Below, one piece after another: positions 9,243 through 64,000 of a stretch of 64,000 nucleotides of DNA. Origin of the DNA: Lentilactobacillus rapi DSM 19907 = JCM 15042 (GTDB lineage Bacteria; Bacillota; Bacilli; Lactobacillales; Lactobacillaceae); assembly GCF_001436255.1 (NCBI RefSeq), contig NZ_AZEI01000076.1, positions 434,001 to 498,000 of the forward strand. The letters run 5' to 3'. Positions within the stretch are counted from its first letter, which is position 1. Every line of letters begins with the position of its first letter. The notes beneath the pieces were generated by a model, which saw only the letters and a program-made list of their open reading frames with translations, did not search any database and was not told where the DNA came from. The translations under genes were made by a program, and so were the position numbers.

Positions 9243-10277
9243 ATGGCAACTATTATAAGTGTTTCCGACTTGGCAAAATTACCCGATTTACAGGCTCCAG
9301 TGATTACATTGAATCTGAACCTGCGTAAACTGGCATTTGATCAAAGTGAACGGCTCCGGGTCAAGAATATGCTCAAAGAAATCGAAAAGAAATCTGGCAG
9401 TGATCTCAAGTCGTTTGTCACTGACGTGGATGACTTAACCCGTCAACAACTGCCTTATGAAGGAATTTCGGTGATCACTGATAAAACCGGCTCAAAGGTC
9501 TATCACCTGATTCGCACCAGTGTTGATGAACCTGATTATCGAATTGAAGACGCCATTGACTGGTTGTTGTTATTGAGTGAGGCGCCAAACGCCGACTATA
9601 CTTTAATTGAAATTAATCGTGACAATAGTAAATTGTACGAACTTAAAAATAAACGAGTTAATCCTTTAGCAGTCAAGGATTATCCAGCGACCGTTCAAGA
9701 TGCGCTTGGAACTGAAATCCGTGGTGGTGAACTGAACTTTAGTGGTAAAGGTGGTTCTACCCAGTATCACGGTCATAACGAAACCAGTCAGGAAAAGAAA
9801 ATTGACCAGGAACGTTATTACCGTTTCATTATCGATTTAATCAATAAGGACAGCGATTTGGCCAACCATCAATTTATTTTAATGGGGCTCGCCCAGAATA
9901 TTAATTTGTTTAAGAAGTTAAATAACAGCTTACCACTTGCTCCGGTTGAAATTGACCAATCCGTCCAGAACCTGGCTCCTACCGAGATTGCCAAGCTGGT
10001 AAATGATCAAATCGAGAAGCACAATCGTACCAACACCGCGGATGCTATCACCAAAACGTTCCGCGACAAACTATTTACCGACTTTACCAATATTCAGAAC
10101 TTGCTAAACTCAAAAGACATTCGTCATCTATTCGTTGCCTCACGAGATGAAATCAACCAAAATGACCCAAAGATTTATGCTGAGATTAACCAAATGATCA
10201 AACAAGCATTGGCACAAGATACCAATGTCACTGTTGTGAATGAAGATTCAACGATTCCACTCGTGAGTGCGGTATAA
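9243..10277 (+). CDS. eRF1-like (baeRF-type) protein
   Basis: A 344-residue soluble protein resembling the bacterial archaeo-eukaryotic release factor (baeRF) families. It has an N-terminal domain (VITLNLNLRKLAFDQSERLRVKNML), a central domain with YTLIEINRDNSKLYEL and a glycine/histidine-rich loop GKGGSTQYHGHNET before KKIDQERYYRFIIDLI (~170-200), and a C-terminal L7Ae-like part (IRHLFVASRDEINQN). Related proteins are thought to act on stalled ribosomes or in stress; the exact function is not known. The ATG follows AAGGAG. Monocistronic, with a strong terminator. Confidence 0.6.
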   Translation: MATIISVSDLAKLPDLQAPVITLNLNLRKLAFDQSERLRVKNMLKEIEKKSGSDLKSFVTDVDDLTRQQLPYEGISVITDKTGSKVYHLIRTSVDEPDYRIEDAIDWLLLLSEAPNADYTLIEINRDNSKLYELKNKRVNPLAVKDYPATVQDALGTEIRGGELNFSGKGGSTQYHGHNETSQEKKIDQERYYRFIIDLINKDSDLANHQFILMGLAQNINLFKKLNNSLPLAPVEIDQSVQNLAPTEIAKLVNDQIEKHNRTNTADAITKTFRDKLFTDFTNIQNLLNSKDIRHLFVASRDEINQNDPKIYAEINQMIKQALAQDTNVTVVNEDSTIPLVSAV

Positions 10278-12261: not shown

Positions 12262-12378
12262 TTAGGATCGCTCCGCAAAGCACCAACCTGCACATAAGTT
12301 CCTCAAATAAAAATCCAAACCCGGGATTTCTATTTGAGGAGTCTTATGTTTCGGTTGCTAACCGCTTTGCTCCGCGCA
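12262..12378. repeat. Covarying palindromic element, single copy
   Basis: One 117-bp unit of the same family as the tandem array at 47110-47602. It starts TTAGGA, ends ACCGCTTTGCTCCGC, and has the apex AAATCC-aaaccc-GGGATTT. The variable helices pair within the unit: CCAACC (12283-12288) with GGTTG (12353-12357), CATAAG (12293-12298) with CTTATG (12343-12348), and CCTCAAATA (12301-12309) with TATTTGAGG (12331-12339). It abuts the eutJ stop codon. Confidence 0.85.
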
Positions 12379-13254
12379 CTAGTCGTGGTCATACATTGCA
12401 ATTCCCAATGGGGTGATGAACTGTGGGAATGCGGTCTTATACGCCGGTATTCCTAATACTTTGCTAAATGCCGGAATAAATGACTTAAAATTAATCGCAC
12501 CACCCACCACGACAACGGGTTGCTTGATTGAACTGCCAACTGAATCTTTGACGATCGTGGCCATCTTTTCGACAACTGGTCGGATAACTGGGAACACCTC
12601 ATCCTCTTTTTCCGGATCGCGCTTTAATAGTTCGGCATCATCCGAATCAATTTTATGGTTACCAGCTAAGACCAAGGTCATATGGAAACCGCCAGTCGCT
12701 TCGTCCAGCACTTGGGTCAATTTCCCATGATTGAAGACACTAATCCCAGTTGTGCCACCACCAATGTCCACAACGGTTCCCGTCTTGAGATTCAAGAACT
12801 TTGCAGCAGCTGTTGGTTCGTCAACCACGTGTTTGCATTGCAGTTCCGCCGACTCGATGACGTTGGCAACAATTTTTGCCGCGCCTTCGCCTGTGCCAGG
12901 TGGAATTGCCCCACAAGCTGTGGTGAGCTCAACGCCTAAAACGTCTTCCGCTTTGTGTTTCAATCGCTTCAAAATGTTGACTGAATCCACGTAGTTGACA
13001 ACAATCCCATCACGCACTGCCTTGGCATATTCAAATGCACCGTAAATGATGTTGTCGTCTTTATCCAGGACCGTTAAAACAATCGAAGACGTTCCTAAGT
13101 CAACTCCACAACTAAAGACTTCATCTTTTTTGGCTTTTCGAACCGCATGATCACTGTTCACAACTTTAGCGAACTGCTTTAATAGTTTATCCGCAGCCTT
13201 CAGATCGACTGTTTGTTTAGTCTGTACCGACTTTTTTGTTTGTTTAATCGCCAT
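12379..13254 (-). CDS. eutJ: EutJ/PduM-locus Hsp70-like ATPase
   Basis: A 291-residue ASKHA-fold protein of the EutJ family found in ethanolamine and propanediol utilisation loci, probably a chaperone or reactivation factor for the microcompartment enzymes. Visible ATP motifs are GVDLGTSS (residues 50-57, phosphate 1), VVDIGGGTTGISVF (phosphate 2) and VVVGGAINF (adenosine); DEPTAAAKF sits between them. The start is ATG 13254 after AGGATGAGGG; a TTG six bases upstream is less likely. It is divergent from the PocR gene. No structural pdu or eut gene is present in the window, so it is an orphan of that pathway. Confidence 0.9.
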   Translation of the reverse strand: MAIKQTKKSVQTKQTVDLKAADKLLKQFAKVVNSDHAVRKAKKDEVFSCGVDLGTSSIVLTVLDKDDNIIYGAFEYAKAVRDGIVVNYVDSVNILKRLKHKAEDVLGVELTTACGAIPPGTGEGAAKIVANVIESAELQCKHVVDEPTAAAKFLNLKTGTVVDIGGGTTGISVFNHGKLTQVLDEATGGFHMTLVLAGNHKIDSDDAELLKRDPEKEDEVFPVIRPVVEKMATIVKDSVGSSIKQPVVVVGGAINFKSFIPAFSKVLGIPAYKTAFPQFITPLGIAMYDHD

Positions 13255-47109: not shown

Positions 47110-47231
47110 TTAGGACAGCTCCTCCAAGCAATAATCTGCATATAAGCACCTTCTGCAAAAATTCCAAACCAGGAATTTCTGCAGAAGGAGACTTATATTC
47201 CGATTATTCCCGCTTTGATCCGCTCACTTCT
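47110..47231. repeat. Palindromic unit 1 of 4
   Basis: 122 bp beginning TTAGGACAGCT. Pairing segments are AATAATC (47130-47136) with GATTATT (47202-47208), ATATAAG (47140-47146) with CTTATAT (47192-47198), CCTTCTGCA (47149-47157) with TGCAGAAGG (47180-47188), and AAATTCC with GGAATTT around the apex AAACCA. Conserved mismatched spots (CTGC opposite TCCG, CACC opposite GGAGA) form internal loops. Confidence 0.9.
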
Positions 47232-47355
47232 TTAGGACAGCTGCACAAAGCAGAAACTTCCACCTAAGCACCTTCCGCAAAAATCCCAAAACCAGGGATT
47301 TCTGCAGAAGGAGACTTAGGCTCCAGTTTCTAACCGCTTTGATCCGCTCACTTAC
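47232..47355. repeat. Palindromic unit 2 of 4
   Basis: 124 bp with the same conserved frame. The variable helices differ from unit 1 but still pair: AGAAACT (47252-47258) with AGTTTCT (47325-47331), and CCTAAG (47263-47268) with CTTAGG (47315-47320). The apex is AATCCC-aaaacca-GGGATT. Confidence 0.9.
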
Positions 47356-47479
47356 TTAGGACAGCTGCGCAAAGCAAAAGTCTGCACATAAGCACCACCA
47401 ACAAAAATCCCAAAAACGGGGATTTCTGTTGGCGGAGACTTATGCTCCGACTTTTAACCGCTTTGCTCCGCTCATTTCT
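47356..47479. repeat. Palindromic unit 3 of 4
   Basis: 124 bp. Variable helices are AAAAGT (47376-47381) with ACTTTT (47450-47455), CATAAG (47387-47392) with CTTATG (47439-47444), and CCAACA (47398-47403) with TGTTGG (47427-47432), again changed on both arms at once. Confidence 0.9.
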
Positions 47480-47602
47480 TTAGGACAGCTCCTCCAAGCA
47501 ATAATCTGCATATAAGCACCTTCGGCAAAAATCCCCAAAACCGGGATTTCCGCCGAAGGAGACTTATATTCCGATTATTCCCGCTTGGATCCGCTCACTT
47601 CT
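47480..47602. repeat. Palindromic unit 4 of 4
   Basis: 123 bp, closest to unit 1, with AATAATC/GATTATT and ATATAAG/CTTATAT. The third helix reads CCTTCGGC/GCCGAAGG, a compensated change relative to unit 1, and the basal CCAAGC faces GCTTGG. Confidence 0.9.
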
Positions 47603-47606
47603 TTTC

Positions 47607-47635
47607 TTGACCACACAAACATATGTTCGTATAAT
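47607..47635 (+). promoter_or_regulatory. Promoter with embedded LexA (SOS) box
   Basis: TTGACC (47607-47612) and TATAAT (47630-47635) are 17 bases apart, a near-ideal housekeeping promoter. Between them CAAACATATGTTCG (47616-47629) matches the Gram-positive SOS box CGAACATATGTTCG at all but one position. Repression by LexA and induction by DNA damage are inferred. Confidence 0.75.
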
Positions 47636-63242: not shown

Positions 63243-63476
63243 AAATCCAAAGCCAGGATTTCCCCACTACATTGTTGAAACGGGCAAAAAACAACTGCCG
63301 CTTACTATCTAAAGGACCCTTAACTAAAATCCAACCAGGACTTCCCCTGCTACATTGTTGAAACGGGCAAAAAACAACTGCCGCTTACTATCTAAAGGGC
63401 CCTTAACTAAAATCCAAAACCAGGATTTTAGTTAAGGGTCCTTTAGATAGCCGCGTCAAACCGTTGTTTTTTGCCC
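63243..63476. repeat. Direct repeats and long hairpin at the ATPase 3' end
   Basis: Units of ~84 bp begin at 63243, 63327 and 63410 (AAATCCAA...). The last forms a hairpin over 63365-63476: GGGCAAAAAACAAC with GTTGTTTTTTGCCC, CTATCTAAAGG with CCTTTAGATAG, and CCTTAACTAAAATCC with GGATTTTAGTTAAGG, apex AAAACCA. The right arm includes the last codons of the ATPase gene (stop at 63456-63458), so the 3' end of a coding sequence is part of the palindrome. The stretch 63073-63242 shows nothing else. Confidence 0.85.
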
Positions 63477-64000
63477 TCTTATTTTTCTAACCAGCCACTT
63501 TCTCCCCTCTTCCAACAGAAATAGTGGAATTGGGATACAGAATAGGAATACCCATTCAGAGAAATTGAGAGGTCCCGTATTGAAAATTTCCTGAAGAAAC
63601 GGCTGATACATTAGGCAGGCAATCAGGACAATTTCTACGCCAATTCCTAACCAGATTCGTCGGTTACTAAATAACCCAATCGAAAAGACTGACGAAATTT
63701 GCGTGCGACAGTTCATTGCCGCTGCAATCTGGCAGAACACAATTGCCCCCAGCGTAATGGTTGTCGCTTCCGCGTAGGGTAATCCTGATGAAGCCAAAGG
63801 GATATTTGGCCAGCCATTAACGTGATTAACAAAGAAGTAAGCAGCCGTTGAAATGACCGAAGCCGTCAATCCGTACAACCCAAACGCTTTCCAAATAATG
63901 GACTTGTTCAACAGATGACTATTTTGCGGACGGGGCGGCTGGTCCATAATCCCTGGTTCAGCTTTTTCAATGCCTAATCCAAGCGCTGGCAGTAAATCTG
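63456..64000 (-). CDS. P-type cation-transporting ATPase, C-terminal part
   Basis: The frame is open to the right edge (…DLLPALGLGIEKAEPGI then MDQPPRPQNSHLLN). It is the last ~181 residues of a P2-type ATPase of the calcium or cation-transporting kind. DLLPALGLGIEKAEPGIMDQPPR is the conserved hinge before the C-terminal membrane helices. Four further helices are visible (SIIWKAFGLYGLTASVISTAAYFF, EATTITLGAIVFCQIAAAMNCR, RRIWLGIGVEIVLIACLMYQPF, WVFLFCIPIPLFLLEEGRKWLV). The start lies outside the window; the stop is inside the palindrome. Confidence 0.93.
   Translation of the reverse strand, partial: DLLPALGLGIEKAEPGIMDQPPRPQNSHLLNKSIIWKAFGLYGLTASVISTAAYFFVNHVNGWPNIPLASSGLPYAEATTITLGAIVFCQIAAAMNCRTQISSVFSIGLFSNRRIWLGIGVEIVLIACLMYQPFLQEIFNTGPLNFSEWVFLFCIPIPLFLLEEGRKWLVRKIRGQKTTV

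Follow-up and report, generated by a model that had tools for sequence, protein, structure and literature searches.

Hairpin repeats of Lentilactobacillus rapi as a putative mobile element with apparently exchanged bodies

What maintains and spreads a near-perfect hairpin whose arms differ from copy to copy? The question is raised by an array in the 64,000-nucleotide stretch of the L. rapi DSM 19907 genome analysed here (the window), for which a first-pass annotation had described four tandem imperfect palindromes with paired changes in their arms.

The array and its relatives

The array proved real. Four copies lie head-to-tail on the plus strand at 47110–47599, with spacings of 122, 124 and 124 between their starts (Table 1), and Tandem Repeats Finder reported the same region as 47110–47604, with a period of 124 and 4.0 copies. 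The single copy that had been named as a fifth member also aligned with the four array copies. RNA folds of the array copies yielded z-scores of -7.1 to -9.8, with none as good among 200 dinucleotide shuffles of each; these folds, together with the covariation test described below, rule out chance palindromes. The array begins 2 nt past the end of the Oxidored_FMN frame, and the promoter-like element of the downstream frame, read by eye, lies 7 nt 3′ of its end.

Table 1. Hairpin copies and neighbouring features in the window
Feature	Position	Strand	Remarks
Single copy	12262–12380	+	3′ edge shares 2 nt with the end of a minus-strand called frame
Upstream frame, 379 aa	45968–47107	+	Oxidored_FMN (PF00724, 2.7e-71)
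Hairpin copy 1	47110–47229	+	body AATAATC / ATATAAG / CCTTCTGC; minus-strand fold better
Hairpin copy 2	47232–47353	+	body AGAAACT / CCTAAG / CCTTCCGC
Hairpin copy 3	47356–47477	+	body AAAAGT / CATAAG / CCACCAAC
Hairpin copy 4	47480–47599	+	body AATAATC / ATATAAG / CCTTCGGC
Promoter-like TTGACC-17-TATAAT	47607–47635	+	read by eye; stretch also in L. dabitei
Downstream frame, 121 aa	47658–48023	+	no Pfam match

Elsewhere in the window, another tandem repeat (63243–63479; period 83, 2.2 copies by Tandem Repeats Finder) contains a palindrome whose apex, ATCC-AAAACC-GGAT, resembles that of the hairpin family, with a weak profile match at 63395–63479; it is perhaps a distant relative. The sole Rfam match in the window was the tmRNA gene on the minus strand at 1182–1548 (RF00023, 198 bits).

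The family is not limited to the five copies first counted, but numbers hundreds in the L. rapi genome. BLAST with copy 2, whose body family comprises 21 copies in L. rapi and L. dabitei, hit 97 places in the L. rapi genome (E ≤ 0.01), and a profile search of 64 L. rapi loci (61 of them amounting to 1.19 Mb) gave 246 matches, 188 of them near full length. The BLAST places on the 534-kb contig were confined to the window array, and many shorter contigs carried several; the repeats may break the L. rapi assembly. A covariance model built from 50 diverse copies gave at least 149 matches in each of four Lentilactobacillus genomes and matched 17 of 24 genomes of the genus, while the search of Lactobacillaceae genomes proposed in the annotation produced matches in 83 of 301 genomes and 19 of 40 genera, L. 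rapi being counted in both surveys. In Lactobacillales, 19 of 295 genomes in 10 of 74 genera matched, eight of these outside Lactobacillaceae and mostly weakly. The joint that links the two lower helices is lopsided in the distant copies too, a feature that the model used to find them rewards. Among the matches listed, the exact pattern was carried by L. kisonensis, L. fungorum, L. dabitei, L. raoultii, L. otakiensis and L. parakefiri, with a few chance matches elsewhere. The range of the element thus covers Lactobacillaceae and probably other Lactobacillales.

Matches at 60–80% identity were also found in 80 plasmid records. In the five that were inspected, the copy adjoins either copY, with a copper ATPase gene next in two of three cases, or an SLC45-type transporter gene near an alpha-glucosidase gene. 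A related hairpin next to copY occurs on a Listeria plasmid (locus L168, 3501–3613) and likewise on plasmids of several lactobacilli, which argues that the repeat moves between genera on plasmids. None of 50,697 phage records matched, ruling out a phage origin. The earlier claim that the repeat corresponds to no named RNA held as well: in the window and 13 further loci, no Rfam 15 family exceeded its gathering threshold over the hairpins, which gave only below-threshold matches, and a known Rfam RNA is thereby ruled out. A literature search by titles and the beginnings of abstracts returned no description of the family, although subscription papers are thinly covered in it and one may be in print.

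Covariation and the folded strand

Pairing is maintained throughout the family. Of the cells in the 50 diverse copies, 94.3% are paired, and 21 of 30 pairs are altered on both sides; such both-side changes occupy 294 cells compared to 87 in shuffles. The covariation score of 0.516 goes beyond chance, as shuffles gave 0.170 and none of 500 reached the observed value, and sliding the partners by 1–3 columns gave at most 0.134 (the relatedness of the copies inflates the shuffle control, and sliding favours the structure given). The helix letters change in step and the loop positions are constant across the family. When 563 unique copies were scored on sequence-profile rather than structure-guided alignments, 15,610 of 16,871 cells were Watson–Crick, 294 plus-strand G-T, 481 A-C and 486 other.

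RNA structure is usually proven by covariation, and changes on both arms had initially been taken to indicate selection for the fold. The matched changes hold generally, but selection on an RNA does not follow from the covariation alone, because plus-strand G-U is rarer than A-C, coupled changes occur within young families and bodies appear to be exchanged. Selection for a plus-strand RNA is ruled out by the same counts, in which G-U should have exceeded A-C.

The hairpin had indeed been read on the plus strand, yet with RNA energies the minus-strand fold was the better one in 98.5% of the 200 copies evaluated (mean -58.3 compared to -46.8) and in 97% with DNA energies (-30.9 compared to -26.1). 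This per-copy comparison is the fair one, since the consensus energies stem from unlike sets of 50 and 30 copies; in the 50-copy consensus fold, apex gaps kept the apex stem out. The internal loops CTGC/TCCG and CACC/GGAGA are conserved, as was first described, but on the minus strand they are not simply mismatched, forming instead a GNA/GNA loop and a U-G pair with its neighbours. The flanks of the 3 × 3 loop are G.A in 96% and A.G in 93%, and columns 38/83 are U.G in 77%; columns 49/71 are GU in 74% and AU in 12%, and columns 31/90 GU in 49%, GC in 23% and AU in 23%. Beyond Lactobacillaceae the copies differ in which strand folds better, the plus strand being lower in energy for L360, three L362 copies and L369.

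A strand difference was also seen within 22 families of near-identical bodies (196 copies), where one-sided stem changes produced minus-strand G.T at 47 of 3,596 sites and A.C at 19 of 3,375 (binomial p = 0.0018), with no such difference at the non-apex loop sites of the same families (25/1,067 and 81/3,558). The direction persisted at cut-offs of 0.95 (29 compared to 15) and 0.90 (73 compared to 44), although at the latter the loop sites are themselves unbalanced in the opposite direction (34/1,670 compared to 186/5,859, or 20.4 and 31.7 per 1000).

Two of the options raised by the annotation can be weighed against these data. The minus-strand G-U pairs, the GNA/GNA loop and the U-G pair are typical of RNA and, like the strong covariation, speak for a structured RNA (a small RNA, a leader or an element of the 3′ UTR) that has spread in many copies and whose fold on the minus strand would be under selection because it serves the host. 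A chromosome protein that binds these sites as duplex or cruciform DNA would fit the position of long palindromes between genes, as well as the maintained Watson–Crick pairing with few wobbles of either kind. A cruciform is strand-symmetric, however, while both the fold energy and the tolerated mismatches are strand-biased, and the presence of the family is patchy, which makes protein-binding cruciforms a very improbable explanation.

Changes within young families give a view of how the pairing is kept. Across 12 body families (117 copies), the consensus pairs of helices H2–H4 are Watson–Crick in 221 cases, G-T in none, A-C in 2 and other in 5, four of the latter from one shifted family. Members of these families carry 50 one-sided cells, 22 coupled Watson–Crick cells and 2 coupled other cells; counted once per family, pair and type, the 22 cells reduce to 15 distinct changes, and nine of the 22 cells are double transversions, which a wobble step cannot bridge. 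Copies with coupled changes have 3 to 10 core differences in total, and some of the changes may have been imported from other bodies; copy 4 of the window array shows one isolated coupled change (TA>GC) and 3 core differences compared to its body family. Two independent mutations account poorly for such changes, whereas template switching from arm to arm would account for them, and matched changes made in both hairpin arms in one step by template switching have been described in RNA genes (PMC8794818).

The same published mechanism lends support to an ordinary MITE moved by a present or past DDE transposase, in which quasipalindrome switching keeps the arms, homologous recombination alters the arrays and the hairpin is not specially recognised. 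Against it, only 2 of 297 copies have a perfected internal loop 1, so that switching almost never perfects the loop positions and something holds the loops.

Apparent exchange, turnover and placement

Each unit consists of a hairpin body (about model columns 17–108) on short feet. L. rapi copies from different arrays with columns 31–95 at least 95% identical (110 pairs, 68 copies) showed high identity across columns 17–108, with a drop at 12–16 and 109–115, and among the copies listed one body occurs on different feet while array mates have feet in common. In the main subfamily (62 arrays, 164 copies from L. rapi and L. dabitei), neighbours share spacers (z = 7.8, from a shuffle that mixed the species) and the unpaired columns 12–13 (z = 2.8) and 112–115 (z = 3.4), but not H2 (z = -1.0), H4 (z = -0.8) or the foot helix 14–16/109–111 (z = 0.9 and 0.6); this three-pair helix neither clearly moves with the body nor is array-specific. 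All 74 arrays, with no subfamily filter, gave z = 6.9 for the outer columns and z = -1.7 (p = 0.04) for the stems, for which we claim an absence of similarity between neighbours only, the avoidance being slight and weaker in the main subfamily. As the stems of neighbours are not alike, array growth by tandem duplication alone is ruled out. A single L. dabitei copy (locus L293, 3634–3752) has two top arms that by eye match different bodies, and is a possible half-exchanged chimera.

Turnover between the sister species was found to be fast. Orthologous places in L. dabitei were available for 47 L. rapi arrays, 40 of which had a usable copy on both sides. Although the flanks of these 40 are on average 94.7% identical, copy number is unlike in 26, and only 24 of 89 L. 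rapi copies and 26 of 73 L. dabitei copies have a partner with an identity of 0.9 or above, with none in 18 of the arrays. The window array has four copies in L. rapi but one in L. dabitei, whose identity to any of the four is at most 0.79 between flanks that are 96.0 and 98.5% identical. Such rapid change, like the patchy presence in the genus, argues against a structured RNA with a host function. Short units occur in several arrays; at about position 9646 of locus L256, a miniature unit has kept the lower stem and lost the top, and at the corresponding place in L. dabitei (locus L312) a further full unit lies upstream.

Placement was counted for 93 L. rapi arrays between open frames with naively called starts, leaving out five arrays within a called frame, near-end arrays and arrays without a 100-column copy. 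Where the downstream frame is co-directional, the array ends 4–24 nt ahead of its start in 27 of 50 cases, and where it is convergent, the array end lies within -5 to +8 nt of the stop in 29 of 43. The distances on the 5′ side, with medians of 137 and 204.5 nt, did not cluster in this way. T is abundant in the right flank, which often continues into AGGAGG.

Read along the minus strand, many arrays directly follow a stop codon (the convergent cases), which would suit a structured RNA, but both orientations are found in tandem gene pairs (30 and 24 of 93). The wobble asymmetry is moreover equal beside starts and stops: in L. rapi and L. dabitei together, plus-strand A-C and G-T cells number 75 and 46 in 46 arrays beside a start, 47 and 28 in 52 arrays beside a convergent stop, and 83 and 42 in the 62 remaining arrays. 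Since the A-C excess is the same at both positions and arrays occur in both senses, host transcription is seemingly not what is selected; there is little support for selection acting through host mRNA, and the structured RNA appears rather unlikely. What remains as the selected form is single-stranded DNA or an RNA that the element itself produces. In one complete genome, arrays showed no significant replication-strand bias (61 and 49; p = 0.29, with the terminus assumed at 1.5 Mb).

A few empty orthologous sites were read by eye; two have the sequences TTTAGGAGG and TTAGGAGG (L. rapi L254 compared to L033/L094, and L225 compared to L032). Many other 'empty' places are too diverged to read. 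In the filled counterparts of the two sites, the left flank has TTTAGGA or TTAGGA and the right flank a similar stretch. A possible target-site duplication, with TTTAGGA on both sides at L033/L094 and a similar arrangement at L032, is absent from the right flank of stop-side sites. Another 'empty' place, L235 compared to L294, retains the left end of a unit and is therefore probably a deletion. The flanking TTTAGGA at two sites with empty orthologues speaks for an ordinary DDE-moved MITE, but the body edges sit near the hairpin base, and no autonomous parent element was found in a narrow search of 3.1 Mb that gave 23 split-copy candidates, 6 of the 16 listed being examined. Nine frames between or beside split-copy ends belonged to transporter, enzyme or HTH families or had no match, with no transposase among them. 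We regard this explanation as unlikely.

A proposed shape-read element and its counterparts

Among the three options first proposed, a mobile hairpin element fits best. With a probability of roughly 55%, we favour a non-autonomous, MITE-like palindromic element that is recognised as a folded single strand and whose bodies pass between sites through recombination or template switching. The short unit with terminal inverted repeats that characterises a MITE is present, the entire unit being an imperfect palindrome. The folded minus strand, as single-stranded DNA or as a short-lived RNA of the element, would be recognised by a protein or by the replication machinery. Recombination, or template switching by a polymerase, would start and end near the hairpin base and so exchange the bodies, and switching between the arms would give matched double changes in one step. 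Badly folding copies would cease to spread and then decay, and no benefit to the host would be needed. Exchange is here deduced from sequence comparison.

Several points count against this mobile element. At only 2.9% of cells, minus-strand wobbles in ordinary stem pairs are few for an RNA; the loop sites are unbalanced at the 0.90 cut-off, some copies outside Lactobacillaceae lack the strand bias, and the foot helix does not fit the picture of exchanged bodies. Searches for a transposase, a recombinase or a parent element found none. The Y1 transposase family PF01797 occurs in 7 of 24 genus genomes and RVT_1 in 8 of 24, each with one in L. rapi and none in two copy-rich genomes; these absences rule out a Y1-driven REP system and genus-wide RVT_1-driven retrotransposition. 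In addition, 3′-most copies are less decayed than 5′-most copies (6.9% compared to 9.7% unpaired cells in 117 arrays from all fetched loci; p = 0.004), but entry at the 3′ end would predict young single copies, yet these form the most decayed class, with 11.9% unpaired cells.

A more specific and more doubtful version is a hairpin-cassette system, in which site-bound junctions of about 29 nt (3′ foot, spacer and 5′ foot) would alternate with bodies drawn from a genome-wide pool. The minus single strand would be read by its shape through the GNA/GNA loop, the U-G pair and a bulge, by a putative enzyme common across Lactobacillales. If a shape-reading enzyme does move the bodies, this would be a new kind of mobility, situated beside the start regions of many genes.

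The extreme covariation of the family probably does not stem from host selection on RNA, as it is strand-biased, indifferent to the direction of transcription and accompanied by coupled double changes and apparent body swapping. As judged from its sequences, the family is a putative mobile repeat. It could show how near-perfect hairpins are maintained and spread, and the 563 unique copies, together with the sister species, make the origin and persistence of such hairpins testable.

Among known systems, integron attC sites are hairpins read by shape on one strand, with helix letters left free. The likeness would lie in shape reading on one strand; in the hairpin family, what moves would be the hairpin. 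ERIC, which folds as a single long stem-loop (PMC1590033, PMC2267715), and Efa-1 and Sta-1, of size 163 and 105, respectively (PMC2267715), are like the present family intergenic, dispersed stem-loops of similar size. What sets the family apart from these, as far as their descriptions in the same sources go, is the combination of array-bound feet, exchanged bodies and family-wide covariation, and the cassette-like behaviour is the new point. REP/BIME repeats with RAYT are likewise palindromic, intergenic and arranged in arrays (PMC2817692, PMC3733652), but REP units measure 20–40 bp compared to about 122 bp here, and the hairpin copies in one array all have the same direction. The closest counterpart to the upkeep of the arms is template switching, which also makes matched changes in one step, as described for RNA genes (PMC8794818). 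Unlike those genes, the hairpin bodies would also travel between distant arrays.
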